Below, piece after piece: positions 8,325 through 64,000 of a stretch of 64,000 nucleotides of DNA. Location: contig JARFNK010000003.1 of the NCBI GenBank assembly GCA_029167225.1, positions 1 to 64,000 on the forward strand, in the 5' to 3' direction. Source of the DNA: Sphingobium arseniciresistens (GTDB taxonomy: Bacteria; Pseudomonadota; Alphaproteobacteria; Sphingomonadales; Sphingomonadaceae). Both the position numbers and the translations under genes were made by a program. The notes beneath the pieces were generated by a model. That model was not told the origin of the DNA. It saw nothing but the letters and a program-made list of their open reading frames with translations, and did not search any database. How positions within the stretch are numbered: position 1 is the first letter of the stretch; every line of letters begins with the position of its first letter.

Positions 8325-10932
<2,608 letters not shown>

Positions 10933-46845: not shown

Positions 46846-48233
46846 GCGCCGACTTGCCCGGGGCTGCAGACCTGCCCAATGACATTGCGGGCATCGCGCA
46901 GGCCGTGCGCAGCGGTGCGGTCTCCGCCACACGCTTCGCCCGTCGCGCGATTGATAGGATGGGCGTGGCCGATGGCGACGTGCTTGCCGCGACACGCATT
47001 CTGGAAGCGCGCGCGCTGGCCGATGCGGCTGCCGTCGATGCGATGGTGGCGTCCGGCGCCGATCCGGGGCCGCTTGCCGGCGTGCCCTTCGGCGTCAAGG
47101 ACCTGTTCGACATTGCCGGCCTGCCGACGACCGCCGGTGCAGCGATGCGGGCGCGTGCGGCGCCGGCGACCGGCGATGCCGAAGGCGTGCGGCGATGCGT
47201 CGCCGCGGGCGCCGTGCTGGTGGCGAGCCTCAACATGGACGAGTTCGCCTATGGCTTTGCAACCATCAACGCTGCCTATGGCACGACCCGCAATCCGCAT
47301 GACCTCTCGCGCCTTGCCGGGGGCTCCTCGGGCGGATCGGCGGCGGCGGTGGCGGCGGGCTTCCTGCCGCTGACGCTCGGCACCGACACCAACGGCTCGA
47401 TCCGGGTGCCGGCGTCGCTGTGCGGGGTATGGGGGCTGAAGCCCACCCATGGTGGCCTGCCGATGGCCGGGGCCTTTCCTTTCGTCGACAGCTTCGACGA
47501 TATCGGACCGTTCGCGGCCAGCCTTGCCGACCTGCGACTGGCGCATGGGGTGTTGGCCGGCGCGCCGCTGCCCCCGGTGGAGGCCGGGGGATTGCGCGTC
47601 GCGCGGCTGGGCGGCTGGTTCTCCGCCAATGTCGCGCCAGACATTGTGGCGGGGATCGACGCCATCGCCGCGCATCTGGGCGGCATGCCCGCCGTTGAAC
47701 TGCCACAGGTCGAGCGGGCGCGCTCCGCTGCTTTCCTGATGACGGCGGCGGAGGGCGGTGCCCGGCACCTGCCGGCGCTCCGGCGCGATGCCATGGGCTT
47801 TGATCCCCAGACTCGCGACCGCCTGATTGCCGGGGCGATGCTGCCGGCCAGCGCCTATTTCAGGGCGCAGGATTTCCGGTGCTGGTTCCTGCAGCAGGCG
47901 CTGGACCTGTTTGCGCGCCATGACGTGCTGATCGCGCCGGCGACGCCCTGCGCTGCGCCCTTGATCGCTGATCCGATGATCGACGTGGACGGCGCGAGGG
48001 TGCCCGCACGCGCGCATCTGGGCCTCCATACCCAGCCGATCAGTTTCATCGGCCTGCCCGTGATCGCCGCGCCGCTGGCCCGTGGGCCGGGCGAACTGCC
48101 GGTGGGCGTGCAACTCATCGGCGCGCCGGGGCGGGAGGACGTGCTGTTCGCGCTCGCCGCCGCGCTTGAGGATGCCGGGCTGCTGCGCGCCGCGCCGCCA
48201 GTCTTCCCTTTTCTCTCCCGGTTGCCAGCGTGA
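46842..48233 (+). CDS. hpxY: HpxY-like / AtzE-like amidase-signature hydrolase
   Basis: A 463-residue amidase-signature enzyme. The Ser-cisSer-Lys triad is visible as Lys in GVPFGVKDLFD (about 86), the cis-Ser in LAGGSSGGSAAA (about 163) and the nucleophile in GTDTNGSIRVP (about 186). It is most like AtzE, which hydrolyses the ureido amide of 1-carboxybiuret. In this cluster the equivalent substrate would be oxalurate or another ureido acid from purine breakdown. It overlaps its HpxX partner by four bases. Confidence 0.85.
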   Translation: MSADLPGAADLPNDIAGIAQAVRSGAVSATRFARRAIDRMGVADGDVLAATRILEARALADAAAVDAMVASGADPGPLAGVPFGVKDLFDIAGLPTTAGAAMRARAAPATGDAEGVRRCVAAGAVLVASLNMDEFAYGFATINAAYGTTRNPHDLSRLAGGSSGGSAAAVAAGFLPLTLGTDTNGSIRVPASLCGVWGLKPTHGGLPMAGAFPFVDSFDDIGPFAASLADLRLAHGVLAGAPLPPVEAGGLRVARLGGWFSANVAPDIVAGIDAIAAHLGGMPAVELPQVERARSAAFLMTAAEGGARHLPALRRDAMGFDPQTRDRLIAGAMLPASAYFRAQDFRCWFLQQALDLFARHDVLIAPATPCAAPLIADPMIDVDGARVPARAHLGLHTQPISFIGLPVIAAPLARGPGELPVGVQLIGAPGREDVLFALAAALEDAGLLRAAPPVFPFLSRLPA

Positions 48234-48365: not shown

Positions 48366-49727
48366 ATGACCGATGCTGTGCCTGTTGCCGATTCTTCCGC
48401 GCCCGCCTCTTCCATCGATCGCCACTTCCGCCTGACCGAACGCGGGACATCCGTGCGGACCGAGGTGCTGGCGGGTGTCACCACTTTCCTGACGATGGCC
48501 TATATCGTGCTGGTGAACCCGGCGATCCTGGGGCAGGCGGGGATGCCCGTCGCCGCCGTTGCTGCCGCGACCTGTTTCGCCGCCGCATTTGCCAGCATCC
48601 TGATGGGCTTCGTCGCCAATGTGCCGCTGGCGATGGCGCCGGGCATGGGTCTCAACGCCTATTTCAGCTTTACCGTCGTGCAGCAGATGGGCGTGCCCTG
48701 GCCGGTGGCGCTGGGCTGCGTGTTCATATCCGGCGTCGCCTTCGTGCTGCTGACGCTGGTAGGCGTGCGCCAGCTGATCGTCGCCGCCATCCCGCCATCG
48801 CTGTTTGCCGCGGTCGCCGGTGGCATCGGCATGTTCATCGGCTTCATCGGCCTGAAGAATGCCGGGATCGTCGTCTCCAATCCCGCGACCGCCGTGGGGC
48901 TGGGCGACATGCATTCGCCCGGTGTGCTGCTCGCCATCTTCGGCCTCGTGCTGATCGGCGCGCTGTCGGTCTGGCGGGTGAAGGGCGCGATCCTGATCGG
49001 CATGGTGGTGACGACGATCGCCGCCGCGCTGCTGGGACAGGTGAGCTTCAAGCCGGAGCCCTATAGCCTTGGCGCGCTGACGGAAACAGCCTTCCGCCTC
49101 GACCTCGCCGGCGTGTTCGGCGCGCCCGGCAAGCATGGGCTGGGCGTGCTGGAGATCGTCTTCGTCTTCCTGTTCGTCGACCTGTTCGACAATCTCGGCA
49201 CGCTGGTTGCCGTCACCAAGCGGGCGGGGTTGATGGATGCGGCCGGGCGGATACCGGGCCTCAACCGCATCTTGCTGACCGATGCGACCGCGACCATCGT
49301 CGGATCGATGGCGGGGACCAGCACCGTCACCAGCTATGTCGAGAGCGCGGCGGGCGTACAGGCGGGCGGGCGCACCGGCCTGACCGCGATCGTCACCGGC
49401 ATCCTCTTCCTCGCAGCCATGTTCGCCGCGCCCTATGCGCAGCTGGTACCGGTCGCCGCGACCGCGCCGGCGCTGATCCTCGTCGGCAGCCTGATGATGG
49501 CGCCGCTGGTCGAGGTCGCGTGGGACGAGCCGTTCGAGGCGATCCCGGCATTCCTGACGGTCGTGCTGATCCCGCTGACCTTTTCCATCGCCAACGGCCT
49601 GGCCTTCGGCATCACCGCCTATGCGCTGCTCAAATTGCTGCGCGGCACCGCCACCAAGGGAGACTGGTTATTATTCGTTCTTGCAGCCCTGTTCGTCGCG
49701 CGTTTCGCCTGGATGAGCGCGGCATGA
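48366..49727 (+). CDS. AzgA/GhxP-type purine permease (NCS2 family)
   Basis: A 453-residue transporter with about 12-14 hydrophobic spans. The MAPGMGLNAYFSFTVVQQMG segment near 84, the FLFVDLFDNLGTLVA and VGSMAGTSTVTSYVESAAG motifs mark the COG2252 (AzgA) clade for adenine, guanine and hypoxanthine. The xanthine/uracil clade of NCS2 has different motifs, so a purine-base importer is likely. Its stop overlaps the start of the exported nucleosidase gene. Confidence 0.88.
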   Translation: MTDAVPVADSSAPASSIDRHFRLTERGTSVRTEVLAGVTTFLTMAYIVLVNPAILGQAGMPVAAVAAATCFAAAFASILMGFVANVPLAMAPGMGLNAYFSFTVVQQMGVPWPVALGCVFISGVAFVLLTLVGVRQLIVAAIPPSLFAAVAGGIGMFIGFIGLKNAGIVVSNPATAVGLGDMHSPGVLLAIFGLVLIGALSVWRVKGAILIGMVVTTIAAALLGQVSFKPEPYSLGALTETAFRLDLAGVFGAPGKHGLGVLEIVFVFLFVDLFDNLGTLVAVTKRAGLMDAAGRIPGLNRILLTDATATIVGSMAGTSTVTSYVESAAGVQAGGRTGLTAIVTGILFLAAMFAAPYAQLVPVAATAPALILVGSLMMAPLVEVAWDEPFEAIPAFLTVVLIPLTFSIANGLAFGITAYALLKLLRGTATKGDWLLFVLAALFVARFAWMSAA

Positions 49728-50653
49728 TGCGCGTGCTCTGTGGTGCCGGGCTCGCCCTGCTGGCGCTGGTCGCTACGCCGGCCATGGCGCAGAAAGTCGA
49801 CACCACCCCGCGGACGGCGGTGATGACGGCCTTCCCGCCGGAATGGGATTCGATGGTCCACATGGTCGAGAAACCGGTGGAGCATCATATCAACGGCCTG
49901 CTCATCCTGACCGGTACGATGGCGGGCAAGCCAGTGGTGCTGATGCAGAGCGGCGTGTCGATGGTGAATGCGGCGATGACGTCGCAGCTGCTGCTGGATC
50001 GCTTCACCGTGAAGCGCATCGTCTTTTCCGGGATTGCGGGCGGCATCGACCCCGGCCTCGATGTCGGCGACGTCGTGGTGCCCGAGCGGTGGAACCAGTA
50101 TATGGAGGTCTCGCTCGCGCGGAAACTGCCCGATGGCAGCTGGGCGCCGCCCGAGCGGCAGGATGCCGACGCCCTGCCCAATTACGGCATGATGTTCCCG
50201 CGCGGCGTGCGCGTGGGCAATGCGACCGAGCCTTCGACCCGTCACCGCTGGTTCATGGCCGATCCCGCGCTGCTGACGCTCGCCCGATCCTCCATCACGG
50301 GCGCGAAGCTGGCGCGCTGCCTGCCCGCGACCGGCGCCGCAACGCCGAAATGCCTGGAGAAGGAACCCAAGGTCATCGTCGGCGGCGGGGGCGTCAGCGG
50401 GCCGGCCTTCGCCGACAATGCCGAATATCGCGAATATCTGTTCAAGACCTTCCAGGCGCAGGTGCTTGACATGGAGAGCGCGGCGGTGGCCCATGTCGCC
50501 TATGCCAACAGCGTGCCCTATATCGCCTTCCGCAGCCTGTCCGATCTGGCCGGTGGCGGCGATGGCCCCAACCAGATGGTGATTTTCATGAACCTGGCGG
50601 CGGTCAATTCCGCGACCGTGGTGCGCAGCTTCGTGGCGGCGCTGCCGGATTGA
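49724..50653 (+). CDS. Exported purine nucleosidase / phosphorylase-superfamily protein
   Basis: A 309-residue protein of the PNP/MTAN fold with an N-terminal signal peptide (cleavage near AMAQ). FSGIAGGIDPGLDVGDVVV, DMESAAVAHVAYANSVPYIA and FRSLSDLAG hold the ribose-binding Glu and the Asp in the base site. An extracytoplasmic member could release bases from nucleosides outside the inner membrane. It overlaps the permease gene, which suggests that it feeds that transporter. Most relatives are cytoplasmic, so export is notable. Confidence 0.8.
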   Translation: MMRVLCGAGLALLALVATPAMAQKVDTTPRTAVMTAFPPEWDSMVHMVEKPVEHHINGLLILTGTMAGKPVVLMQSGVSMVNAAMTSQLLLDRFTVKRIVFSGIAGGIDPGLDVGDVVVPERWNQYMEVSLARKLPDGSWAPPERQDADALPNYGMMFPRGVRVGNATEPSTRHRWFMADPALLTLARSSITGAKLARCLPATGAATPKCLEKEPKVIVGGGGVSGPAFADNAEYREYLFKTFQAQVLDMESAAVAHVAYANSVPYIAFRSLSDLAGGGDGPNQMVIFMNLAAVNSATVVRSFVAALPD

Positions 50654-52236
50654 TGCAGCACAGCCCCCAGTCGCTTCGCGGGATCGTGACCGCGCCGCAT
50701 CATCTGGCGGCGCAGGCCGGGCGCGACATCTTGGCGGACGGCGGCAATGCGGTGGAGGCGGCGGTGGCCGTCGCCGCGACGCTGGCGGTCGTCTATCCAC
50801 ATATGACGGGTATCGGCGGCGACGGCTTCTGGCTGATCGCCAATCCCGATGGGTCGGTCGAGGCGATCGACGCCTGCGGACGGAGCGCCGCTGCGGCGGA
50901 CCTGTCGCTCTACGCCGGCATGGAGGCGGTGCCATGGCGCGGGCCGCTGGCGGCGAACACTGTCGCTGGCACGATTTCCGGCTGGGCGCTGGCGCTGGAG
51001 AAATATGGCGCGGGCATCGGGCTGGAACGCCTGCTGCGCGATGCGATCCACCATGCCGATGCGGGCGTGGTGGTGACGCGCGGCGGCGCGGGGATCGCGG
51101 CGGCCAAGGGCGCGGAGCTGCGGGGGCTGCCTGGCGCCTGGGCCGAGACGTTCGAGCCGGAAGGGCGACCGCTCCAAGAGGGCGACATCCTGCGCCAGCC
51201 GATGCTCGCCGGCACGCTGCGGCGGCTGGTCGCGGAAGGGCTGGAGAGTTTCTACACGGGCACGCTGGGCGCCGACATTGCCGCAGACCTTGCCGCGCTG
51301 GGCAGCCCGGTATCGGCACAGGATCTGGCCGATCATCGCGCCGAGCCCTCCGTGCCGCTGCATGTGCCGGTGAGCGGCGCGCGCCTCTACAATCATGCGC
51401 CGCCGACACAGGGCATTGCCGCGCTGCTCATCCTGGCGCTCTACGACCGGCTGGGCGTGCGCGGGCCAGCCGATGGCTTCGCGCATGTGCATGGACTGGT
51501 CGAGGCCACGAAACAGGCGTTCCTCTGGCGCGACCGGCATTGCGGCGATCCGGCATGGATGACCGCCGATCCACAGGTGCTGCTGGACGATGCGATGGCG
51601 CTCGACGCGATGGCCGCGCGCATCGATCCCGCCACTGCGCTGCCTTGGCCGCAGCCCTCGCAGCTTGGCGACACGACATGGTTTGCCGCCGCCGACGGCG
51701 AGGGCCGCGTGGTCAGCTGCATCCAGTCCACCTATTTCGAATTCGGCTCCGGCATCGTGCTGCCGAAGACCGGGATCACCTGGCAGAACCGGGGGGCATC
51801 TTTCCGGCTGGCGGCCGATGGCTGGAATGCGCTGAAGCCTCGGCGCAAGCCCTTCCATACGCTCAACCCGGCGCTTGCCCGCTTCGATGACGGCCGCGTC
51901 ATGGCATATGGCACCATGGGCGGGGAGGGCCAGCCGCAGACGCAGGCGGCGCTCTTCTCGCGCTATGCCTGGGGTGGGGTGGGCTTGCAGGACGCGATTT
52001 CCCGTCCGCGATGGCTGCTCGGGCGGACATGGGGCGAGGACAGCGCCAGCCTGAAGATCGAGGACGGGTTCGACCCCTCGCTCTACGTCGCGCTTGCCGA
52101 CGCCGGGCATGAGGTGGAACGGGTCGGGCCGCTGACGGCGATGATGGGCCATGCCGGCGCCATCGTGCGCCATCCCGACGGGCGGCTGGAGGGCGCGAAC
52201 GATCCGCGCAGCGATGGCATGGTGAGCACATGGTGA
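50653..52236 (+). CDS. hpxW: HpxW-like gamma-glutamyltransferase-family Ntn hydrolase (oxamate amidohydrolase type)
   Basis: A 527-residue Ntn hydrolase that should self-cleave before a threonine; the nucleophile is in SQLGDTTWFAAADGEG (about 341). GGNAVEAAVAVAATL, the DACGRSAAAADLS region, and FGSGIVLPKTGITWQNRG are family motifs. In Klebsiella HpxW cleaves oxamate to oxalate and ammonia. It is soluble here, with no signal peptide, unlike true periplasmic gamma-glutamyltransferase. Genes on both sides are purine-catabolic. The assignment rests on context and family. Confidence 0.78.
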   Translation: MQHSPQSLRGIVTAPHHLAAQAGRDILADGGNAVEAAVAVAATLAVVYPHMTGIGGDGFWLIANPDGSVEAIDACGRSAAAADLSLYAGMEAVPWRGPLAANTVAGTISGWALALEKYGAGIGLERLLRDAIHHADAGVVVTRGGAGIAAAKGAELRGLPGAWAETFEPEGRPLQEGDILRQPMLAGTLRRLVAEGLESFYTGTLGADIAADLAALGSPVSAQDLADHRAEPSVPLHVPVSGARLYNHAPPTQGIAALLILALYDRLGVRGPADGFAHVHGLVEATKQAFLWRDRHCGDPAWMTADPQVLLDDAMALDAMAARIDPATALPWPQPSQLGDTTWFAAADGEGRVVSCIQSTYFEFGSGIVLPKTGITWQNRGASFRLAADGWNALKPRRKPFHTLNPALARFDDGRVMAYGTMGGEGQPQTQAALFSRYAWGGVGLQDAISRPRWLLGRTWGEDSASLKIEDGFDPSLYVALADAGHEVERVGPLTAMMGHAGAIVRHPDGRLEGANDPRSDGMVSTW

Positions 52237-52264: not shown

Positions 52265-53518
52265 ATGGTGAGCGTGCTCGGCGGCATCGCCCCCGGCGGG
52301 GCGCGGGCGGTGGCGCGCTGCGACGCGCTGGGCGTTGCGCCCTATAGCGACATGGCGGGCGGGCTCTACCGTGGCTACCTGACGCCTGCCTACGCCGCCG
52401 CGCAGGATGCCGTCGCGGGCTGGATGGCGGAAGCGGGCATGGTGGTGACGCGCGACGCCGCCGCCAACCTCATCGGCCGCTATGAAGGCAGCATTGCCCA
52501 AGCGCCCGCGCTGCTGATCGGCAGCCATCTCGACAGCGTGCGCGATGCAGGGCGCTATGACGGGCCGCTCGGCATCATGCTGGGCATCGAATGCGTCGCC
52601 GCGCTCCATGCGCAGGGCAGGCGCCTGCCCTTCCCGATCGAAGTGATTGCCTTTGGCGATGAGGAGGGATCGCGTTTTCCCGCCGCGATGCTGACCAGCC
52701 GCGCGGTCGCCGGCACGCTCGCCGCGCAAGCGCTCGATATTGTGGATGCCGATGGCGTGGCGCTGGGCAAGGCGGGGGTCGACGTTGCGCGCTATCTTTC
52801 GGCGAAGCGCGCGCCGGGTTCCACGCTTGCCTATCTGGAGACGCATATCGAGCAGGGGCCGGTGCTGGAGGCGCAGGGGCTGGCCGTGGGAACCGTCACC
52901 GGCATCGCCGCGCAGATGCGCTACCAGCTGACGATCACCGGGACGGCCGGTCATGCCGGCACCAGCAGCATGGGCCTGCGCCGCGATGCGCTTGCTGGCG
53001 CGGCGGAAATGATGGTCGCGATCGAAGGGATCGCGCGGCGCGACGCATCCGATCTGGTGGCGACGGTCGGTCGGATCGAGGCGCTGCCGGGCGCGGCCAA
53101 TGTCATCCCCGGCACCGTGCGCTTTACGCTGGACGTGCGCTCGGGCGATCCGCAGCGTCGCGACCGCGCGGCTGGCGGCATGCTGGATGAAGTCGCCGCC
53201 ATTTGTGCCCGGCGCGGGCTGGATTTCGCCATCGAACGGGTCCACGATCTGCCGGCCAGCCCCTGCGACGATCGGCTGATGGCGCTGATGGATGCGGCGA
53301 TCGGTCGGGCCGGCGCGCCGCCCTTCCGCCTCGTATCCGGTGCGGGGCATGATGCGATGGTGATGGCGGCGCTGTGCCCCACCGCCATGCTGTTCATCCG
53401 CTGTGCCGGTGGGGTCAGCCATAACCCGGCCGAAGCGGTGGATGCCGCGGACGTGGAGGTTGCGCTGGCGGTGATGCTGCACTTCGTCGATGGCCTTGGA
53501 GAGACGTTTGAACCCTGA
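52265..53518 (+). CDS. Allantoate amidohydrolase (M20/M40 family; HpxK/AllC type)
   Basis: A 417-residue di-metal amidase. Metal-site motifs are IGSHLDSVRDAGRYDG, FGDEEGSRF, ETHIEQGPVLE and the closing GGVSHNPAE. It should turn allantoate into ureidoglycine (or ureidoglycolate) plus CO2 and ammonia. Related N-carbamoyl-amino-acid hydrolases are possible, but the position between HpxW and a PucG-type aminotransferase argues for allantoate. It lies 28 bases after hpxW. Confidence 0.85.
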   Translation: MVSVLGGIAPGGARAVARCDALGVAPYSDMAGGLYRGYLTPAYAAAQDAVAGWMAEAGMVVTRDAAANLIGRYEGSIAQAPALLIGSHLDSVRDAGRYDGPLGIMLGIECVAALHAQGRRLPFPIEVIAFGDEEGSRFPAAMLTSRAVAGTLAAQALDIVDADGVALGKAGVDVARYLSAKRAPGSTLAYLETHIEQGPVLEAQGLAVGTVTGIAAQMRYQLTITGTAGHAGTSSMGLRRDALAGAAEMMVAIEGIARRDASDLVATVGRIEALPGAANVIPGTVRFTLDVRSGDPQRRDRAAGGMLDEVAAICARRGLDFAIERVHDLPASPCDDRLMALMDAAIGRAGAPPFRLVSGAGHDAMVMAALCPTAMLFIRCAGGVSHNPAEAVDAADVEVALAVMLHFVDGLGETFEP

Positions 53519-54749
53519 CCTCAACCCGCTGCTCTTCGGTGAGATCGACCCGCCCCAGCGGCTGCTGATGGGGCCGGGGCCGGTCAATGCGCATCCCCGC
53601 GTGCTGCGCGCCATGTCGGCTGACCTGCTGGGCCAGTTCGACCCGGAAATGACCGGCTATATGAACCAGGTGATGGCGCTCTATCGCCCGATCTTCGGCA
53701 CGGCGAACCATTGGACCATGCTCGTCGATGGCACCGCGCGGGCGGGGATAGAAGCGGCGCTGGTTTCGCTGGTCGCGCCGGGCGACCGGGTGCTGGTGGT
53801 GAATTTCGGTCGCTTCGGCCTGCTGCTCACCGAAATCCTCGGCCGCATCGGCGCGGTGATCGAAACGGCCGATGCGCCCTGGGGAGAAGTGGTGCCGATG
53901 GAGGCCATCGCCGCCGCCATCGCGCGCTTCGGGCCGAAGGTCGTCGCCTGCGTGCATGGCGACACCTCGACGACGATGGCGCAGCCGCTGGATGGGCTGG
54001 GCGCGCTGTGCCGCGAGGCGGGGGCGCTCAGCTATGTCGATGCCACCGCGACCATCGGCGGCATGGCGCTGGCGGCGGATGGCTGGGGCGTGGACGTCGT
54101 GACGGGCGGCCTGCAGAAATGCCTGGGAGGGCCATCGGGCTCCGCGCCGATCACCATATCGGATCGCGCCGCCGAGCATATCTTCGCGCGCCGCCATGTG
54201 GAGCAGGGCATCCGCCGCGACGACATCGTCGACGGCACAGGTATCCGCATCGGCTCCAACTATTTCGACCTCGCCATGATCATGGATTACTGGTCGGAAA
54301 AGCGCCTCAACCATCATACCGAGGCGACGACGATGCTCTACGGCGCGCGGGAATGCGCGCGCATCTGCCTGGCCGAGGGGCTGGAGGCACGCTATGCCCG
54401 CCATGCTTCGGCCGGTCGCGCGGTCACGGCGGGGCTGCGGGCGATGGGGCTGAGCGTGTTCGGCGACGACGCGCATCGCATGACCAATGTGACCGGCGTC
54501 TACATCCCCGAGGGTGTGGATGGCGAGGCGGTGCGCACCGCCATGCGCGAGCATTTCGAGATCGAGATCGGCACGGCCTTTGGCCCGCTGCAGGGCAAGG
54601 TCTGGCGGATCGGCGCGATGGGCTACAATGCGATGAAGCACAAGGTGCTGACCACGCTGGCCGCGCTGGAAGTGTGCCTGCGCGCGCAGGGCTTTGCGCT
54701 GCCCGCGGGCGCGGCGGTGGATGCGGCCTTGCTGGGGTGGGAGGGGTGA
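53490..54749 (+). CDS. Class V aminotransferase, PucG type ((S)-ureidoglycine-glyoxylate aminotransferase)
   Basis: A 419-residue PLP enzyme. LLMGPGPVNAHPRVLRAM, HWTMLVDGTARAGIEAALVS and the Schiff-base lysine in GGLQKCLGGPSG (about 210) are typical. PucG/HpxJ-type members convert ureidoglycine and glyoxylate to oxalurate and glycine. Context (allantoate amidohydrolase before, allantoinase after) makes this the best assignment. Starts at 53490 (ATG) or 53508 (TTG, with GGAGAG upstream) are both possible. Confidence 0.85.
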   Translation: MALERRLNPDLNPLLFGEIDPPQRLLMGPGPVNAHPRVLRAMSADLLGQFDPEMTGYMNQVMALYRPIFGTANHWTMLVDGTARAGIEAALVSLVAPGDRVLVVNFGRFGLLLTEILGRIGAVIETADAPWGEVVPMEAIAAAIARFGPKVVACVHGDTSTTMAQPLDGLGALCREAGALSYVDATATIGGMALAADGWGVDVVTGGLQKCLGGPSGSAPITISDRAAEHIFARRHVEQGIRRDDIVDGTGIRIGSNYFDLAMIMDYWSEKRLNHHTEATTMLYGARECARICLAEGLEARYARHASAGRAVTAGLRAMGLSVFGDDAHRMTNVTGVYIPEGVDGEAVRTAMREHFEIEIGTAFGPLQGKVWRIGAMGYNAMKHKVLTTLAALEVCLRAQGFALPAGAAVDAALLGWEG

Positions 54750-54897: not shown

Positions 54898-55791
54898 ATG
54901 ACCGCCCCCCGCGATCTCGTCGGCTATGGCGCCTCGCCGCCCGATCCGCGCTGGCCCGGCGGTGCGCGGATCGCCGTGCAGTTCGTCATCAACTATGAGG
55001 AAGGGGCCGAGAACAGCGTCCTCAATGGCGACAAGGGCTCCGAAGCCTTTCTCTCCGAAATGGTCGGCGCGGCCAGCCACCCGGACCGGGCGATGGCGAT
55101 GGAGAGCCTGTATGAATATGGCAGCCGCGCCGGCTTCTGGCGGCTGCACCGGCTGTTCACGGCGCGCGGCCTGCCCGTCACCGTCTTCGGCGTGGCGACG
55201 GCGATGGAGATGAACCCGGCGGCGGTCGCGGCGATGCTGGCGGCGGACTGGGAAATCGCCAGCCACGGCCTGCGCTGGATCGACTATCAATATCAGCCCG
55301 AAGAGGTCGAGCGCGCCCATATCGCGGAGGCCATCGCGCTCCACACTCGCTTGACCGGCAGCCGCCCGCTCGGCTGGTATCAGGGGCGGACCTCGCCCAA
55401 CACGGCGCGGCTCGTGGCGGAGGAGGGGGGCTTCCTCTATGATGCGGATAGCTATGCCGACGACCTGCCCTATTATGACCGGCGGTTTGGCAAAACCCAG
55501 CTGGTCGTGCCCTATACGCTCGACGTCAACGACATGAAGATCGTGGCGCTCAACGGCTTCACCGAAGGCGAGCAATTCTTCCGTTACCTGCGCGACACGT
55601 TCGACTATCTTCATGCCGAAGGCGGGCGCATGATGTCGATCGGCCTGCATGGCCGCATTGCCGGGCGGCCGGGACGGACGGCGGCGCTCGCCCGCTTTCT
55701 GGACCATATAAGCGCAAGAGAGGATGTCTGGATCGCGCGGCGGGTGGATATTGCCCGTCACTGGCTGAAGGAGCATGCGCCCGATGACTGA
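54898..55791 (+). CDS. puuE: Allantoinase PuuE-type (polysaccharide-deacetylase fold)
   Basis: A 297-residue NodB-fold enzyme that hydrolyses allantoin to allantoate without the usual metal-dependent allantoinase. IAVQFVINYEEGAENSVLNGD, SLYEYGSRAGFWRLHRLF, EIASHGLRWIDYQYQ and LGWYQGRTSPNTARLV match PuuE-type allantoinases. GAGAGG precedes ATG 54898. It follows a palindromic repeat that may separate it from the upstream aminotransferase, and overlaps the next gene by 8 bases. Confidence 0.88.
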   Translation: MTAPRDLVGYGASPPDPRWPGGARIAVQFVINYEEGAENSVLNGDKGSEAFLSEMVGAASHPDRAMAMESLYEYGSRAGFWRLHRLFTARGLPVTVFGVATAMEMNPAAVAAMLAADWEIASHGLRWIDYQYQPEEVERAHIAEAIALHTRLTGSRPLGWYQGRTSPNTARLVAEEGGFLYDADSYADDLPYYDRRFGKTQLVVPYTLDVNDMKIVALNGFTEGEQFFRYLRDTFDYLHAEGGRMMSIGLHGRIAGRPGRTAALARFLDHISAREDVWIARRVDIARHWLKEHAPDD

Positions 55792-56200
55792 GACCGTAGC
55801 CGACACCAAAACCGACACCGTGACCATCGACGATCCCGCGTTGCTGGCGGAAGTGACCGCCGCCTTCGCCGAATATGAGCGCGCGCTGATGGAGGATGAC
55901 ATCCCGGCCATGGACAAGCTGTTCCACGACGCGTCGACCACCAACCGTTATGGCGTGGGCGAGGTGCTGTACGGGATCGAGGAGATCCGCGAATTCCGCA
56001 AGGGCCGTGGCGGATCGCCGCAGCGCAAGCTCGGTAAGGTCGCGATCACAGTCTATGGTGATCGTTTCGCCACCGCCGACGCCGAGTTCTTCCGCGAAAA
56101 TAGCGACCGGCGCGGTCGCCAGACGCAGAGCTGGGTCAGGTTCCCGGATGGATGGAAAGTGGTTTCCGCCCATGTCAGCCTGGAGGGGAGCACGCATTGA
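55784..56200 (+). CDS. hpxZ: HpxZ-like DUF3225 protein (AtzH-like)
   Basis: A 138-residue SnoaL/NTF2-like fold protein. DDPALLAEVTAAFAEYERAL, TTNRYGVGEVLYGIEEIREF and RQTQSWVRFPDGWKVVSAHV mark DUF3225/HpxZ. In the Klebsiella cluster hpxZ accompanies hpxW, hpxX and hpxY. The AtzH relative in s-triazine loci also has an AtzE/AtzG partner. The biochemical role is unsettled. ATG 55784 with GAAGGAG upstream is chosen; the gene overlaps puuE by 8 bases. Confidence 0.85.
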   Translation: MTETVADTKTDTVTIDDPALLAEVTAAFAEYERALMEDDIPAMDKLFHDASTTNRYGVGEVLYGIEEIREFRKGRGGSPQRKLGKVAITVYGDRFATADAEFFRENSDRRGRQTQSWVRFPDGWKVVSAHVSLEGSTH

Positions 56201-56703
56201 CGGCGCAGTTAGCCACAGTTTCCGAGGTGAACGCGCTGGGCGAGGCGGCCTTCGTCGCCCGCTTCGGCACGCTGTTCGAACATTCCCCATGGGTGGTGGA
56301 GCGTGCGGCAGGGCTGCGTCCCTTTGCTGATCTCCATGCCGGGCTGATGCAGGCGGTGCATGAGGCGAGCGCCGAGGAGCAGCTGGCGCTCATCCGCGCG
56401 CACCCGGAACTGGCGGGCAAGGCGGCGATCGACCGGACGTTGACCGATGCTTCGGCCGCCGAGCAGGCCTCCGCTGGGCTCGACCGGCTGACGGCGGAGG
56501 AATATGCCCGCTTCCATGCGCTCAACGCCGCTTACGGGGAGCGCTTCGGCTTTCCCTTCATCATCTGCGTGCGGCTGACCGACAAGGCGGGCATATTGGA
56601 CGCCATGGAACGCCGCGCCGCCAACGACCGGGAGACCGAGATCGCGACCGCCATCGCGCAGATCGGCGAGATCGTCCGCCTGCGGCTGGAGGACATGCCG
56701 TGA
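56197..56703 (+). CDS. uraD: OHCU decarboxylase (UraD)
   Basis: A 168-residue enzyme that converts 2-oxo-4-hydroxy-4-carboxy-5-ureidoimidazoline to (S)-allantoin. LIRAHPELAGKAA (catalytic His) and the C-terminal ERFGFPFIICVR are diagnostic. TTG 56197 overlaps the hpxZ stop (TTGA) and has GGAGGGG upstream, so it is used as the start. It confirms that uric-acid oxidation products are handled here. It is followed at once by the flavoprotein gene. Confidence 0.92.
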   Translation: MTAQLATVSEVNALGEAAFVARFGTLFEHSPWVVERAAGLRPFADLHAGLMQAVHEASAEEQLALIRAHPELAGKAAIDRTLTDASAAEQASAGLDRLTAEEYARFHALNAAYGERFGFPFIICVRLTDKAGILDAMERRAANDRETEIATAIAQIGEIVRLRLEDMP

Positions 56704-58154
56704 TGGAGGATGACGCCATCGGCCTGCCGGCGCTGGAAAACCGGCTGGTGCACGATCTTGCCCTGATCGGCCATGCCGGCACGGACTGGACGCGGCCGCG
56801 CATCCATGAGGATGGCCATGTCTATGATGTCGTGATTGTCGGCGGCGGGCAGAGCGGTCTTGCCGCCGCCTTCGGCCTGCTGCGCGAGCGGATCGGCAAC
56901 ATCCTCGTCATCGACGAGGGGCCGGAGGGGTTTGAGGGGCCATGGGAAACCTATGCCCGCATGGTGACGCTGCGCACGCCCAAGGATCTCAACCCCATCG
57001 ACTATGGCGTGCCGTCTCTCTCCTATCGCGCCTGGTGGGAGGCGCAGCACGGGCGGGAAAGCTGGGCGGAACTGGGCAAGATCGCGCGCGGTGACTGGAT
57101 GGCCTATCTGCGCTGGTATCGCCGCGTGCTGGCGCTGCCCGTCCGCAACGACCACAAGCTGACGATGATCGAGCCGATGCCGGAGGATGGCCTGCATCGC
57201 CTGCACATCGCCAACGGCCTGACCTTCCTTACCCGCAAGGTCGTGCTGGCGACTGGTATTCAGGGCGGCGGCGAATGGCACACGCCGCCGATGATCGAAC
57301 AGAAGCTCTCGCGCGGGCTCTACGCCCATACCAGCGAGCCGATCGACTATGCGGCGCTGGCGGGCAAGCGCATCGGCATCCTGGGCGGCGGGGCTTCGGC
57401 CTTCGACAATGCCAACTGGGCGCTGGGGCTGGGCGCGGCTGCGGTGGAGGTGTTCATCCGCCGCGAGAAACTGCCGCGTATCAACCCGATCCGCTTCATG
57501 GAGCAGGTGGGTTTCACCGCGCGCTATCCGGCGCTGGACGACCAGACCAAATATCGGGTGATGGCGGGCTTCCTGGGCCATAACCAGCCGCCGACCAACG
57601 ACACGTTCGAGCGCGCGGCGGCCTGGCCCGGCTTTGCCCTCCACCTGGGCGCGCCATGGCTGGATGTCGAAGAGGTTGCGCCGGGGGGCAGCGCCGTGCG
57701 TGTCACGACGCCGCAGGGCAGCCACATGTTCGATTTCGTGGTGCTGTCCACCGGGCTCGTCAGCGACCCAGCCCTGCGCCCGGAGCTGGCGCTGGTGGCG
57801 AACGGCATTGCGCGCTGGCGCGACCGGGTGAGCCCGCCCGATGGGATCGCCAATCCGCTGATCGACGCGCACCCTTATCTGGGCGACGGTTTCGAGCTGC
57901 TGCCGCGCGAGGCGGCCGATGCCGCGCGGGTCCACGGCCTGTTCGCCTTCAACTATTCCGCGCTCATCAGCCTTGGCCTCTCCGCCTCGGCGCTTTCGGG
58001 CCTGCGGAACGCCTTGCCCCGCCTTGTCGCCGGCGTCGCCAACCAGCTGTTCCTCGATGATGGGGACGTGCTGGTCGAAGACCTGCTGGGCTATGACGAG
58101 CATGAGTTCCTGGGCGAATGGCCGCGTCAGGGCGCGCGGGAGGCGGCGGCATGA
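56703..58154 (+). CDS. FMO-like flavoprotein, candidate urate hydroxylase
   Basis: A 483-residue FAD/NAD(P)H protein. A first dinucleotide fold with GGGQSGLAAAFGL lies at about 47-59 and a second with ILGGGASAFDNANWALG at about 226-242, as in flavin-containing monooxygenases. It has no signal peptide. It sits between uraD and uraH with overlapping starts and stops, while no uricase, PuuD or HpxO is seen. HpxO urate hydroxylases have only a single such fold, so this is a different enzyme type. The urate role is inferred from position; other oxygenations cannot be excluded. Confidence 0.75.
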   Translation: MEDDAIGLPALENRLVHDLALIGHAGTDWTRPRIHEDGHVYDVVIVGGGQSGLAAAFGLLRERIGNILVIDEGPEGFEGPWETYARMVTLRTPKDLNPIDYGVPSLSYRAWWEAQHGRESWAELGKIARGDWMAYLRWYRRVLALPVRNDHKLTMIEPMPEDGLHRLHIANGLTFLTRKVVLATGIQGGGEWHTPPMIEQKLSRGLYAHTSEPIDYAALAGKRIGILGGGASAFDNANWALGLGAAAVEVFIRREKLPRINPIRFMEQVGFTARYPALDDQTKYRVMAGFLGHNQPPTNDTFERAAAWPGFALHLGAPWLDVEEVAPGGSAVRVTTPQGSHMFDFVVLSTGLVSDPALRPELALVANGIARWRDRVSPPDGIANPLIDAHPYLGDGFELLPREAADAARVHGLFAFNYSALISLGLSASALSGLRNALPRLVAGVANQLFLDDGDVLVEDLLGYDEHEFLGEWPRQGAREAAA

Positions 58155-58498
58155 GCGATGCCTCCACCCCAACCCTGTCGACGCATGTGCTGGACACCAC
58201 CCATGGCTGCCCCGCGGCCGGCGTCGCATTGCGGCTGACGGCGGCGGACGGCAGCCGGCTGTTCTCCGGCACGACCAATGAGGATGGCCGCTGCGCCGGC
58301 CTGCCCGCGCTCGCAACCGGGCGTTACCGGCTGGAGTTCGACGTCGCGCCCTATTTCCGGGCGCGGGGCGTGGCGCTGCCCGATCCGCCCTTTCTCGACA
58401 CCGTCGCCATAGACTTCGGCGTTGCGCCGGGCAGCGACCATTATCATGTGCCGCTGCTCGTCTCTCCCTTTGGCTATTCGACCTATCGGGGCAGCTGA
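58151..58498 (+). CDS. uraH: 5-hydroxyisourate hydrolase (transthyretin-like)
   Basis: A 115-residue enzyme that opens 5-hydroxyisourate to OHCU, the substrate of UraD. The beginning LSTHVLDTTHGCPAAGV and the C-terminal signature YSTYRGS with HYHVPLLVSPF are diagnostic. ATG 58151 overlaps the flavoprotein stop. Presence of both uraH and uraD implies that the intermediate 5-hydroxyisourate is made in the cell, hence a urate-oxidising enzyme is expected. Confidence 0.95.
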   Translation: MSDASTPTLSTHVLDTTHGCPAAGVALRLTAADGSRLFSGTTNEDGRCAGLPALATGRYRLEFDVAPYFRARGVALPDPPFLDTVAIDFGVAPGSDHYHVPLLVSPFGYSTYRGS

Positions 58499-58499
58499 G

Positions 58500-59978
58500 A
58501 TGAGCGTGCGCTTCCTGCTGGATGGCGAGGTGGTCGAGATCGCCGACGTCGATCCGACCGCGACGGTGCTCGACCTGCTGCGTTACCGGCTGCGCCGCAC
58601 CGGCAGCAAGGAAGGCTGCGCCGAGGGTGATTGCGGCGCATGCACGGTGCTGCTGGGCGCGCTTTCCTCCGAAGATGCCGTGGAATGGCGGGCGGTCAAT
58701 GCGTGCATCCTCTTCGTGCCCATGCTGGACGGACGCGCGCTGTTGACCGTGGAAAGCCTTTCGCAGGGCGGTGCGCTTGCGCCGGTGCAGCAGGCGATGG
58801 TGGCATGCCATGGGTCGCAATGCGGCTTCTGCACGCCGGGCATCGTCATGTCGCTGCACGGCAGGGCGATCGGCGCCATGGGCACGGTGGACGTGCCGGT
58901 GGCCGATGTCCTTTCCGGCAATCTGTGCCGCTGCACCGGCTATGGGCCCATCCTGGCGGCGGGCGAGGCTGTGGCATCTGCGCCGCAGGATGATGTGGAT
59001 GTCGTGGCGGCGCTCAGGGGGCTGGTGCGTCGGGAACCGCTGGCGTTCACTTATGACGATCCGCTGTCCGGCACGCAGCGCCGCTGCTTCGCGCCGCATT
59101 CTTCGGATGAGCTGGCGGCACTGCTGATCGACCATCCCGAAGCGAGGCTGGTCGCGGGCGCGACCGATGTCGGCCTCTGGGTGACGAAGCAGCATCGCGT
59201 GCTGCCCGACATCATCCTGCTGGGCGACGTCGCCGACCTGCGCGGGATCGATGAGAGCGACGCCGGGCTGACGATCGGCGCGGGCGTGCGCTATGCGGAG
59301 GCGCAGTCGGCGCTTGCCCAGCTCTCGCCCGACCTTGGCGAACTGGTGCGACGGATCGGCGGGACGCAGGTGCGCAATGCCGGCACCATCGGCGGGAATA
59401 TCGCCAATGGATCGCCCATCGGGGACATGCCGCCCGCGCTGATCGCCTTGGGCGCAACGCTCACCCTGCGGCGCGGCGGGGATCGGCGGACGATGCCGCT
59501 GGAAGACTATTTCCTCGCCTATGGCAGGCAGGACCGGGCGCCCGGCGAATTTGTCGAAAGCCTCTTCGTGCCGCGCCCGGCGGCCGGAACGCTGGTGCGG
59601 ATCACCAAGCTTTCCAAGCGTTTCGACAGCGACATTTCGGCGGTCTGCGGTGCCTTCGCGCTGACCATCGAGCAGGATGTCGTCACGCAGGCGCGCATCG
59701 CCTTTGGCGGCATGGCCGGCACTCCTGCCCGTGCCCGCGCCTGTGAGGCGGCGCTGACCGGCCAGCCATGGAGCGCGGCGACGGTCGAGGCAGCCTGCGC
59801 CGCGCTGGCGCAGGATTATGCGCCGCTCAGCGACGTGCGCGGGTCTTCCGACTATCGGCTGACGGCGGCGGCCAACCTGCTGCGCCGCATCTGGGCGGAA
59901 ACGCGCTATCCCGATGAGCCGATGAGCGTGCTCGATCCGGCATTGCTGTCTGCGCTTGCGGGGACACGCCATGGCTGA
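58500..59978 (+). CDS. xdhA: Xanthine dehydrogenase small subunit (2Fe-2S and FAD)
   Basis: A 492-residue electron-transfer subunit. The plant-type 2Fe-2S cluster uses Cys 40, 45, 48 (GCAEGDCGAC) and 69. The second cluster uses Cys 108 and 111 (QCGFC) and 143 and 145 (LCRC). A FAD domain follows with VAGATDVGLWV and RNAGTIGGNIANGSPIGDMP. It oxidises hypoxanthine and xanthine to urate with the molybdenum subunit. ATG 58500 is two bases after the uraH stop. Confidence 0.96.
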   Translation: MSVRFLLDGEVVEIADVDPTATVLDLLRYRLRRTGSKEGCAEGDCGACTVLLGALSSEDAVEWRAVNACILFVPMLDGRALLTVESLSQGGALAPVQQAMVACHGSQCGFCTPGIVMSLHGRAIGAMGTVDVPVADVLSGNLCRCTGYGPILAAGEAVASAPQDDVDVVAALRGLVRREPLAFTYDDPLSGTQRRCFAPHSSDELAALLIDHPEARLVAGATDVGLWVTKQHRVLPDIILLGDVADLRGIDESDAGLTIGAGVRYAEAQSALAQLSPDLGELVRRIGGTQVRNAGTIGGNIANGSPIGDMPPALIALGATLTLRRGGDRRTMPLEDYFLAYGRQDRAPGEFVESLFVPRPAAGTLVRITKLSKRFDSDISAVCGAFALTIEQDVVTQARIAFGGMAGTPARARACEAALTGQPWSAATVEAACAALAQDYAPLSDVRGSSDYRLTAAANLLRRIWAETRYPDEPMSVLDPALLSALAGTRHG

Positions 59979-62316
59979 TCGCGACGCCGCCCTGCCGCCC
60001 GAAGTCCCGCCGCTGACCGGCGCCGTCCACCGCGCGATCGGGCATGACAGCGCCGCGATGCAGGTCGCGGGCGCCGCGCTCTATGTCGACGACATGGCCG
60101 AGGGTGCCGAGATGCTGCACCTTGCCTTCGGGCAGAGCAGTCAGGCGCATGCCGATATCCTCTCGATGGACCTTTCCGCCGTGCGCGCCGCGCCGGGGGT
60201 GGTTGCGGTCTATACCGCCGCCGACATTCCGGGCAAGAATGATGTGAGCCCGGTGGCGGGCGACGATCCGCTGCTCGCCGAAGGACGGGTTATCTTCATG
60301 GGCCAGCCCATCTTCCTGGTCGCGGCCACCAGCACGATGGCCGCGCGCCGTGCCGCGAAGCTGGGCAAGATCGACTATGCCCCCCTGCCCGCGCTGCTCG
60401 ATATCGACGCCGCGCTGCAGGCGCAGTCGCTGATCGAGGCGAGCCAGAAAATGGGGCGCGGCGATCCCGATGGCGCGATGGCGGCGGCGCCCCACCGGCT
60501 CTCCGGCAAGGTCGCCATCGGCGGGCAGGATCATTTCTATCTGGAAGGGCAGGTGGCGCTCGCGACGCCGGGCGAGGACGGGCAGGTGCATGTGCTCACC
60601 TCCTCCCAGCATCCCAGCGAAGTGCAGCATCTGGTCGCGCATCTGCTCCACAGCTCCAGCGCCGACGTGACGGTGGAGGTGCGCCGCATGGGCGGCGCGT
60701 TCGGCGGCAAGGAAACGCAGGCCGCGCTGTTCGCCGGTGCCGCCGCGCTGGTGGCGAGCAAGACCGGCCGCCCCGCCAAGTTCCGCTGCGACCGGGACGA
60801 CGACATGGTCATGACCGGCAAGCGCCATGATTTCACCGCCGCCTATGATGTCGGCTTCGACGGAGACGGGCGCATCGAGGGCATCCGCATGACGCTGGCC
60901 TCGCGCTGCGGCGCGACCACCGACCTTTCGCCCGCGATCAACGACCGGGCGATGTTCCACGCCGACAATTGCTATTATCTGCCCGCCGTCGAGATCGTCT
61001 CGCACCGGGCGAAGACCCACACCGTGTCCAACACCGCCTTTCGCGGCTTCGGCGGACCGCAGGGGATGCTGGTGATCGAGCGGGTGATGGATGCCATCGC
61101 CGCGCATCTTGGCCGCGATCCGCTGGCCGTGCGCCGCGCGAACCTGTACGACCGGGCCGGCGAGGACAGCGGGCGGCGGATCACCCCCTTCCACATGGAA
61201 GTGACGGACAATGTCGCCCCCGAGCTGATCGACGCACTGGCGGATCGTGCCGACTATGCCGGGCGGATGGCGGCGGTGGAGGCATTCAACGCAACGCATC
61301 ATGTGCTGAAGAAGGGGCTGGCGCTCACCCCGGTCAAGTTCGGCATCAGCTTCACGACGACGCATCTCAACCAGGCCGGCGCGCTGGTGCTGGTCTATGC
61401 CGATGGCTCGATCCAGCTCAACCATGGCGGCACGGAGATGGGGCAGGGCCTGTTCATCAAGGTGGCGCAGGTGGTGGCGGATGTCTTCGCCGTGCCGGTC
61501 GACAGCATCCGCATCACCGCGACGCGGACGGACAAGGTGCCCAACACCTCGGCGACCGCGGCCTCCTCGGGCTCGGACCTCAACGGCATGGCGGCGCTGA
61601 ACGCGGCGGAGCAGATCCGCGATCGGCTCGCCAATCTGCTCGCCTCGCGCCATGGCATCGCGCCGGAGGATGTGCATTTCACGCCCGAAGGCGTAGTCGC
61701 TGGCGACAGCGTCACGCCCTTTGCCCAGCTCTGCCGCATGGCGCATATGGCGCGGGTCTCGCTGGCGGCGAGCGGCTTCTATGCGACGCCCGACATCCAT
61801 TATGACCGCGCCCGGCACAGCGGCCGGCCCTTTTATTATTTCGCCTATGGCGCGGCGATGAGCGAGGTGGTGATCGACACGCTGACCGGCGAGCACAAGG
61901 TACTGGCCGTGGACATCCTCCACGATGTCGGCCGCTCGCTGAACCCGGCCATCGACCTGGGGCAGGTGGAGGGCGGTTTCATCCAGGGCATGGGCTGGCT
62001 CACCACCGAGGAACTGGTGTTCGACGACAAGGGCCGGTTGCTGAGCCATGCGCCGTCCACCTACAAGATCCCCACTGCCAGCGACCGGCCCGCGCATATG
62101 GACATCCGCCTGTGGGATGGCGGCTGCGCGAACGTGCCGACCATCCATCGGTCGAAGGCCGTGGGTGAGCCGCCCTTCATGCTGGCGCTCTCGGTGCTGT
62201 CGGCGCTGACCCATGCTGTCGCCGCCGCCGTGCCGGGAAAAGGATTGCCCGCGCTCGATGCACCGGCGACGCCAGAACGCATCCTCGGCGCCATCGCGGC
62301 GTTGCGGGCGGGGTGA
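59971..62316 (+). CDS. xdhB: Xanthine dehydrogenase large (molybdopterin) subunit
   Basis: A 781-residue subunit that binds the molybdenum cofactor and purine. GGAFGGKETQAALFAG, NTAFRGFGGPQGM, GGTEMGQGLFIK and KAVGEPPFMLALSV (containing the active-site Glu) are in place. The start overlaps xdhA by 8 bases. Its length matches the bacterial two-subunit type. The active enzyme makes urate from xanthine. Confidence 0.97.
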   Translation: MADRDAALPPEVPPLTGAVHRAIGHDSAAMQVAGAALYVDDMAEGAEMLHLAFGQSSQAHADILSMDLSAVRAAPGVVAVYTAADIPGKNDVSPVAGDDPLLAEGRVIFMGQPIFLVAATSTMAARRAAKLGKIDYAPLPALLDIDAALQAQSLIEASQKMGRGDPDGAMAAAPHRLSGKVAIGGQDHFYLEGQVALATPGEDGQVHVLTSSQHPSEVQHLVAHLLHSSSADVTVEVRRMGGAFGGKETQAALFAGAAALVASKTGRPAKFRCDRDDDMVMTGKRHDFTAAYDVGFDGDGRIEGIRMTLASRCGATTDLSPAINDRAMFHADNCYYLPAVEIVSHRAKTHTVSNTAFRGFGGPQGMLVIERVMDAIAAHLGRDPLAVRRANLYDRAGEDSGRRITPFHMEVTDNVAPELIDALADRADYAGRMAAVEAFNATHHVLKKGLALTPVKFGISFTTTHLNQAGALVLVYADGSIQLNHGGTEMGQGLFIKVAQVVADVFAVPVDSIRITATRTDKVPNTSATAASSGSDLNGMAALNAAEQIRDRLANLLASRHGIAPEDVHFTPEGVVAGDSVTPFAQLCRMAHMARVSLAASGFYATPDIHYDRARHSGRPFYYFAYGAAMSEVVIDTLTGEHKVLAVDILHDVGRSLNPAIDLGQVEGGFIQGMGWLTTEELVFDDKGRLLSHAPSTYKIPTASDRPAHMDIRLWDGGCANVPTIHRSKAVGEPPFMLALSVLSALTHAVAAAVPGKGLPALDAPATPERILGAIAALRAG

Positions 62317-63248
62317 TGGCGGTGCTCGACTGGGCGGAAGAGGCGCTGCGGGGATTGGCGCATGGGCCTACCGCGATGGTGACGGTGCTGGCGACGGAGG
62401 GCTCCGCGCCGCGCGGGCCGGGCACGCGCATGGTGGTCACGGAACATGGGCTTTCCGGCTCGATCGGTGGCGGCATGCTGGAATATCGCGCCGCCGAGCA
62501 GGCGCGCGCGATCCTTGCCCTTCCGCCCGGAAGCTGGCGGGTGCAGGATTACCCCCTCGGTCCACTGCTCGGTCAATGCTGCGGCGGCAAGGTCCGCCTG
62601 CTGGTCGAGCGGCTGGACGAGGACGCCGCGACCTGGCTGCGCGCCGCCGATTTCGGCACCGTCTGGGAGGCGCGCTTCGGCGGCGACCGGATCGTGCGCG
62701 CGCCGCTGGACACCGATGCAACCGCCGCGCTGCCCTCTGCTCGTGATCCGCGCCCGGAGCCGGGCGCCGTGCTCGCCGAGCGGCTTGGCACGGCGCCGCG
62801 CCCCGTCATCATGCTGGGCGCGGGCCATGTCGGGCAAGCGATCGCGCGCGCCGCCCATGGCCTACCCTTTGCCTTCGCCTGGTATGACAATCGCGCCGAG
62901 GCGGCCGGGATCGCCGGCGTCACCCATGCGCAGGAGGAAGAGATGCTCTGCGCGATCGGCGCCGCGCCGCGCAATGCCGCCATCCTCATCCTTACCCATG
63001 ACCATGGCCTCGACTTCCGTTTGACGCAGGCGTCGCTGCCCCGGTCTTTCGCCTTTACCGGAGTCATCGGGTCCGCCACCAAGCGCGCCCGCTTCCTCTC
63101 GCGCCTGCGCAAGGCGGGCATGGATGAGGAGGCGCTTGGCCGCATGGTCTGCCCCATCGGCATGGCCGGCATCAACGGGAAGGAGCCCGAAGTGATCGCC
63201 ATCGCCGTCCTCGCCCAGCTGCTCGCGCTCGCGGGGCCGCGCGCATGA
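62316..63248 (+). CDS. xdhC: Xanthine dehydrogenase accessory protein XdhC
   Basis: A 310-residue molybdenum-cofactor sulfurase/insertion factor. The N-terminal XdhC/CoxI part has GSAPRGPGTRMVV and SIGGGMLEYRA and QCCGGKVRLLVERL; the C-terminal Rossmann part has MLGAGHVGQAIARAA and GVIGSATKRARFLSRL. ATG 62316 overlaps the xdhB stop. It should load sulfurated cofactor into XdhB, and its presence confirms a complete XDH operon. Confidence 0.95.
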   Translation: MAVLDWAEEALRGLAHGPTAMVTVLATEGSAPRGPGTRMVVTEHGLSGSIGGGMLEYRAAEQARAILALPPGSWRVQDYPLGPLLGQCCGGKVRLLVERLDEDAATWLRAADFGTVWEARFGGDRIVRAPLDTDATAALPSARDPRPEPGAVLAERLGTAPRPVIMLGAGHVGQAIARAAHGLPFAFAWYDNRAEAAGIAGVTHAQEEEMLCAIGAAPRNAAILILTHDHGLDFRLTQASLPRSFAFTGVIGSATKRARFLSRLRKAGMDEEALGRMVCPIGMAGINGKEPEVIAIAVLAQLLALAGPRA

Positions 63249-64000
63249 GCCTGGCCGGTTATCGCGCCGAAATTCTTGCCGTGCCCCATGATCCCGCGCA
63301 GGCGGGTGCGGAGGCGATCGTTCATTACCCAGACGGCCTGCTGGTCGTGGACGACGGCATCGTCGTGGCGCTGGGCGATCATGGGAGACTTGCGCCCCGA
63401 TACCCTGACGCGCCGGTCACGGCCTTCCCCGGCGGGCTGATCGTGCCGGGCTTCATCGACACCCATATCCATTATCCGCAGACCGAGCGGATCGCCGCCC
63501 ATGGCGCGCAATTGCTCGACTGGCTGGACCGGCACATCTTCCCTGCAGAGATGGCCTTTGCCGATCGCGCCCATGCCGATGGGGTCGCCGCCTTCTTCCT
63601 CGATGAACTGCTGCGCAACGGCACGACCAGCGCGCTGGTGTTCTCCACCATGCACCCCGCTTCGGTCGATGCGCTGTTCGAGGCGGCGCTGGCACGGAAC
63701 ATGCGGATCGTGTCGGGCAAGACGATGATGGACCAGTGCGCGCCGGACGCCCTGTGCGACACGGCCGAGGGATCGCGCGCCGAGAATGAAGCGCTCATTG
63801 CCCGCTGGCGGGGGCGTGGCCGGCTTGGTTATGCGATCACGCCGCGTTTTGCGCTCACCTCCTCCGACGCGCAGTTGCAGGTGGCGGGCGATCTGCTCGC
63901 GGCCCACCCGGATGCGCTGCTGCACACGCATCTGTCGGAAAATCGGGGCGAGATCGCCGCAGTGGCCGCGCGCTTCCCGCACGCGATCGACTATCTCGAC
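63245..64000 (+). CDS. guaD: Guanine deaminase (3' end beyond window)
   Basis: The first 252 residues of an amidohydrolase that deaminates guanine to xanthine. The zinc motif PGFIDTHIHYPQTE, the guanine-specific TPRFALTSSDAQ and the late THLSENRGE are diagnostic. ATG 63245 overlaps the xdhC stop. The gene runs off the window end so length cannot be judged. It supplies xanthine for the dehydrogenase just upstream. Confidence 0.93.
   Translation, partial: MSLAGYRAEILAVPHDPAQAGAEAIVHYPDGLLVVDDGIVVALGDHGRLAPRYPDAPVTAFPGGLIVPGFIDTHIHYPQTERIAAHGAQLLDWLDRHIFPAEMAFADRAHADGVAAFFLDELLRNGTTSALVFSTMHPASVDALFEAALARNMRIVSGKTMMDQCAPDALCDTAEGSRAENEALIARWRGRGRLGYAITPRFALTSSDAQLQVAGDLLAAHPDALLHTHLSENRGEIAAVAARFPHAIDYLD

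Follow-up and report, generated by a model that had tools for sequence, protein, structure and literature searches.

Four types of urate oxidase, encoded by uox, hpxO, hpyO, and puuD, are counted in the excerpted text of PMC4562309, in which HpyO is introduced as a urate hydroxylase from Xanthomonas, dependent on flavin adenine dinucleotide (FAD) and NAD(P)H (reduced nicotinamide adenine dinucleotide or its phosphate), non-homologous to HpxO and published in 2012 (Michiel et al.). The same excerpt states that HpxO and HpyO reduce O2 to water rather than to H2O2 (PMC4562309). The window analyzed here is the 64,000-nucleotide stretch at positions 1 to 64,000 of contig JARFNK010000003.1 of Sphingobium arseniciresistens (Sphingomonadaceae), which holds a flavoprotein gene (56703–58154) between uraD and uraH in a cluster for purine breakdown. 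As judged from sequence comparison, this gene, called hpyO-like below, very probably encodes an HpyO-type FAD- and NAD(P)H-dependent urate hydroxylase that supplies the urate-oxidizing step of the cluster; it is a member of a known enzyme kind, not a new type. The observations behind this assignment are the sequence relationship, the conserved neighborhood, the alternation with PuuD, and the failure of genome-wide searches to find any of the other three urate oxidase types. HpyO itself reportedly complemented A. baylyi lacking hpxO and followed Michaelis kinetics in the 2012 work of Michiel. The gene and the elements marked in it are as follows.

56703–58154, plus strand: hpyO-like gene, predicted FAD- and NAD(P)H-dependent urate hydroxylase of 483 amino acids (open reading frame, homology, clade, and model)
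56841–56858, plus strand: first dinucleotide motif, GGGQSG, residues 47–52, putative FAD site by class B analogy
57384–57401, plus strand: second dinucleotide motif, GGGASA, residues 228–233, putative NAD(P)H site by class B analogy
57498–57503, plus strand: M266-E267, candidate substrate-pocket residues (residue comparison across groups)
57582–57587, plus strand: N294-Q295, candidate substrate-pocket residues (same comparison)
57657–57659, plus strand: W319, candidate substrate-pocket residue (same comparison)
57996–57998, plus strand: S432, candidate substrate-pocket residue (same comparison)

Translation of the gene could alternatively begin at a GTG at 56700. The dinucleotide motifs follow the pattern GxGxx(G/A), and their roles in binding FAD and NAD(P)H, respectively, are predicted by analogy. 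The structure model (predicted local distance difference test, pLDDT, 92.3) has the fold of a class B flavin monooxygenase and matches PvdA, KtzI, SidA, and FMO (Foldseek, VIA-align). As modeled, two dinucleotide-binding domains lie on one chain, with a fold like those of the N-hydroxylating (NMO) and flavin-containing (FMO) monooxygenases, which bears out the suggestion, made from the letters alone in a first-pass annotation of the window, of two dinucleotide folds resembling class B enzymes. A search for a solved structure close to the protein found none. Unlike the N-hydroxylating class B enzymes PvdA, SidA, and KtzI (14–20% identity), whose target is an amine nitrogen, the protein has a purine carbon as its predicted target.

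In the protein search, 3305 relatives were found at an E value of 0.001 among 7997 scored candidates; chance is not an issue, because so many of the candidates are relatives and the gene order recurs. The nearest relative, from Sphingobium aquiterrae, is 88% identical. Kinship with HpyO is indicated by a protein of Xanthomonas sp. PPL133 (P0283, representing 56 member sequences), which is 66% identical over 474 positions, and a Pseudoxanthomonas protein (P0308) is 67% identical over nearly its full length. Points that the hpyO-like protein shares with the Xanthomonas enzyme are two dinucleotide motifs, a lack of homology to HpxO, and kinship with a Xanthomonas homologue (66% identical, same clade); it differs in host family, in cluster order (here uraD-hpyO-uraH-xdhABC), and in that its activity here is predicted. 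The name “FAD-dependent urate hydroxylase” is carried by 4 of the 120 listed relatives (72–76% identity; two named HpyO), and among the matches listed the named relatives are mostly labeled FAD/NAD(P)-binding protein, oxidoreductase, CzcO, or hypothetical. Because of these generic names, and because curated NCBIfam models pass over it, the gene goes unnoticed. In two Bacillus strain papers, a gene is named FAD-dependent urate hydroxylase from annotation only (PMC10460076, PMC12029181).

The tree of the family has 74 rows: the window protein, eight named proteins, and 65 sequences left after 118 were reduced at 82% identity. The window and Xanthomonas proteins share one 23-row clade (Shimodaira–Hasegawa-like approximate likelihood ratio test, SH-aLRT, 100), which also includes other sphingomonads, Parvibaculum, Acidocella, Paenibacillus, and a Priestia plasmid protein. 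In this clade uraD/uraH are adjacent in all 14 rows whose context was read, the window included, the other 9 being without a read context. Another clade, of 24 rows from acetic acid bacteria, Niveispirillum, and others (42–49% identity to the window), contains 16 linked, 6 unlinked, and 2 unread rows; for one of the six unlinked (L050), the stretch read on one side is shorter than 5 kb. A 20-row clade contains 0 linked, 19 unlinked, and 1 unread row. Seven rows are left over: three Rhizobiales proteins, none of them linked; a trio that comprises Myxococcota and a melainabacterium, with two rows linked and one unlinked; and a single long row, also unlinked. In the contig scan, at least 596 stretches of genomes were covered, and the best 80 of 563 relatives were kept, a selection that leans to the Niveispirillum branch because it was ranked by a Niveispirillum protein. 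Among these best 80, uraD and uraH lie within 8 kb in 60; 12 of the other 20 loci have less than 5 kb read on one side.

These relationships bear directly on the first-pass annotation, which had proposed that the gene might be a urate hydroxylase of a type not described before. The proposal stood insofar as the flavoprotein most likely supplies the step; the claim to a new type did not, since the annotation listed three known types and overlooked a fourth, HpyO. That the type is previously undescribed now seems extremely unlikely: the silence of the curated NCBIfam models and the lack of the other three known types in the genome would suit it, but the fourth type is in print, as the excerpt of PMC4562309 records, and the protein falls in the same clade as the Xanthomonas homologue to which it is 66% identical.

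The genome searched comprises 6.6 Mb in 120 contigs and is rated 100% complete and 6% contaminated. Whole-genome searches gave 0 matches to the cofactor-free uricase (PF01014; B. subtilis control positive), 0 to PuuD (PF06181, Urate_ox_N; C. vibrioides control positive), and none over the 500-bit cut-off of the HpxO model NF033623, for which the best score was 190.9 bits. What had been reported for the window, that none of uricase, PuuD, and HpxO was to be seen, thus holds genome-wide, and no canonical urate oxidase turned up either elsewhere in the genome or just beyond 64,000, a finding that the annotation had named as one that would refute its proposal. The latter candidate was rejected with sequence to 79999 and four open reading frames (ORFs) scanned to ~72.7 kb: guanine deaminase, an SBF-like transporter, a long ORF with no family match, and ribonucleotide reductase. 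In this region (L009:6593–10258; contig ~66592–70257), long frames occur on both strands, of 1221 amino acids on the minus and 1127 on the plus, the plus-strand frame matching neither Pfam nor NCBIfam models.

Three HpxO-like group A monooxygenases, with 168–191 bits to the HpxO model, are the candidates that such a score would favor as urate oxidase. They were rejected, and it is exceedingly improbable that one of them oxidizes urate, because their scores are far below 500 bits, all three score higher on the 3-hydroxybenzoate 6-monooxygenase model (likewise below its cut-off), and in the 11–14 kb read around them none of 12 purine-cluster genes, including uraD, uraH, puuE, and xdh, was matched. 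The hpyO-like protein has the same predicted reaction as HpxO (the group A flavoprotein of Klebsiella), with FAD and NAD(P)H, but belongs to a different family, with no match to the HpxO model at an E value of 0.001 and with two dinucleotide folds.

Among 179 genomes of the window's bacterial family, the hpyO-like gene is present in 8 and uraD in 9, and all eight have both within ~130 bases. In the ninth uraD genome (G896) there is no hpyO-like match; a full-length PuuD gene lies directly after uraD-uraH, with puuE before and xdhB after. PuuD (PF06181), a membrane, cytochrome c-linked enzyme to which the hpyO-like protein is unrelated, occupies in that genome the same place beside uraD-uraH. 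Uricase was found in 0 of the 179 genomes. Matches to PF06181 occur in 19 of them, full length in G896 alone; the other 18 were not counted as PuuD, being partial (36–42 bits, ~65–95 of 295 positions). These partial matches fall at PuuD model positions ~145–247 and exceed the cut-off, so that short matches of this kind would inflate PuuD counts.

Several points weigh against taking the gene for an HpyO-type urate hydroxylase. Its activity, cofactor preference, and chemistry are predictions, and no curated NCBIfam model names the protein. The link to HpyO runs through P0283, a sequence other than that of the assayed X. campestris protein and one whose neighborhood was unseen, and no named Xanthomonas locus is among the best 80 of 563 relatives. 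The tree was made by a quick method, with a short search and SH-aLRT as the single support measure. The alternation with PuuD is also seen among genomes with a relative, where PuuD is present in 0 of 38 that are uraD/uraH-linked vs. 4 of 12 unlinked (L050, L051, L052, L064, and L110 of the latter having less than 5 kb read on one side), but this comparison covers 50 of the 80 loci and, of the urate oxidases, PuuD only; the Fisher values for the associations (4e-13 and 0.002) ignore kinship and are a guide only. Homologues at 36–44% identity are common and mostly away from urate genes: in the phylum sample, where 22 of 398 genomes (own genome included) have a match at E 1e-80, the matches other than that in the window fall in 24 places, 23 of which have no uraD/uraH within the at most 8 kb read and one of which has uraH nearby. 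Of 369 genomes in the class sample around G249, only one gave a match at E 1e-92. Both class samples yielded the same genome, G556, alone (1/369 and 1/350, with shared listed genomes), whose order was represented by two genomes, one of them with the gene.

Since 23 of the 24 places in the phylum sample are unlinked, the broad family is not urate-specific; the window's clade is, within the context read for its rows. Such distant homologues would fit a flavoprotein that acts on another compound of the pathway, urate being oxidized by an unrecognized enzyme elsewhere in the genome, as would the fact that class B enzymes usually oxidize heteroatoms. We consider this very unlikely, however, because the gene alternates with PuuD beside uraD-uraH and shares its clade with Xanthomonas. 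With an HpyO-type enzyme, which we prefer, the apparent gap in the uric acid pathway of this organism would be closed by a known enzyme.

HpxO and the class B enzymes serve as models for the predicted mechanism: NAD(P)H would reduce the bound FAD, and the reduced flavin would react with O2 to give a C4a-(hydro)peroxyflavin. From this intermediate, one oxygen would pass to C5 of urate, giving 5-hydroxyisourate, and the other would leave as water. The unstable 5-hydroxyisourate would be converted onward to allantoin by UraH and UraD, whose genes flank this one and are probably co-translated with it. A soluble enzyme of this kind, with a class B fold and reported to form water, not H2O2, may be of some use for gout enzyme therapy and for the correct annotation of purine use.

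The residues M266-E267, N294-Q295, W319, and S432 are conserved across two mostly urate-linked groups and are present in at most 5 of 25 other homologues. Of the 74 rows in the tree, 66 entered this comparison, in groups of 23, 18, and 25 picked from the tree; the 18-row group has 16 linked and 2 unlinked rows, and the 25-row group 24 unlinked and 1 unread. Our guess is that these residues form the substrate pocket. Urate clusters are also seen in the loci L050–L107, mostly acetic acid bacteria (matches at ~8001–9400), and in L014 and L045–L047, from Niveispirillum and kin. This deep branch (~43–49% identity to the window), whose genomes are without PuuD where searched, is possibly a candidate urate hydroxylase subfamily. 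The chances appear evenly balanced that the HpyO family extends beyond the single enzyme published so far, as flavoproteins with the class B N-hydroxylase fold that act on a purine carbon and reach from sphingomonads to Bacillota plasmids. Its deep branch (~45% identity; acetic acid bacteria, Niveispirillum) and a myxobacterial one, both in urate clusters of genomes lacking PuuD, would then be candidate urate hydroxylase subfamilies having substrate pockets of their own. Possible novelty would lie in the distant relatives (acetic acid bacteria, ~45% identity), not in the window gene.

A search of 348 plasmid records led to six opened regions, two of them urate-linked. On a Priestia filamentosa plasmid (L013, 6001–7431), a compact permease-uraD-uraH-hpyO unit encodes a protein 59% identical to that of the window, and a recombinase and a Tn3-family transposase lie a few kilobases on. 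A single metagenome sequence on a 2641-base contig (P0090) encodes a UraD-HpyO fusion of 619 amino acids, with PF09349 at 2–143 followed by the flavoprotein. Because uraD and hpyO overlap by one base in the window, such a fusion could arise from the loss of one stop; it could also be an assembly error.

The cluster around the hpyO-like gene consists of the following genes.

46842–48233, plus strand: AtzE family amidohydrolase, presumably HpxY-like (TIGR02715 and NF006631 over cut-off)
48366–49727, plus strand: xanthine/uracil permease family transporter (PF00860)
50650–52236, plus strand: gamma-glutamyltranspeptidase family protein (PF01019; TIGR00066 below cut-off)
52265–53518, plus strand: allantoate amidohydrolase (NF006775 over cut-off)
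53490–54749, plus strand: class V aminotransferase (PF00266; no NCBIfam equivalog over cut-off)
54898–55791, plus strand: puuE, allantoinase (TIGR03212 over cut-off)
55775–56200, plus strand: hpxZ, oxalurate catabolism protein (NF033625 over cut-off; PF11533)
56152–56703, plus strand: uraD, 2-oxo-4-hydroxy-4-carboxy-5-ureidoimidazoline (OHCU) decarboxylase (PF09349, 9e-49; TIGR03164 over cut-off)
58151–58498 (ORF from 58118), plus strand: uraH, 5-hydroxyisourate hydrolase (PF00576; TIGR02962 over cut-off)
58422–59978, plus strand: xdhA, xanthine dehydrogenase small subunit (TIGR02963 over cut-off)
59956–62316, plus strand: xdhB, xanthine dehydrogenase molybdopterin subunit (TIGR02965 over cut-off)
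62313–63248, plus strand: xdhC, accessory protein (TIGR02964 over cut-off)
63245–64000, plus strand: guanine deaminase, continuing beyond the window end (TIGR02967 over cut-off; full ORF L009:3246–4556)

Taken together, these genes appear to lead from guanine to oxalurate products, with no enzyme named by the models at the urate-oxidizing step. The family models agree with the first-pass annotation in placing genes from xanthine oxidation to allantoin hydrolysis around a gap at urate oxidation, and the overlaps it described with uraD and uraH are present: the uraD stop and the hpyO-like start meet in TGATG (56701–56705), a one-base gene overlap, and the likely uraH start and the hpyO-like stop in ATGA (58151–58154). 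The latter overlap is probably of 4 bases and not 37, as would follow from the ORF start at 58118, because 58151 appears the likelier start of uraH. Given these overlapping junctions, translational coupling of uraD, the hpyO-like gene, and uraH is likely. From its position, the class V aminotransferase may be a ureidoglycine-glyoxylate aminotransferase, and the gamma-glutamyltranspeptidase family gene, also from its position, is one that we take to be possibly the oxamate amidohydrolase HpxW. The same cluster is present in Sphingobium sp. AS12 (L117), where the gamma-glutamyltranspeptidase family gene recurs; many acetic acid bacteria also have this gene in their urate clusters.
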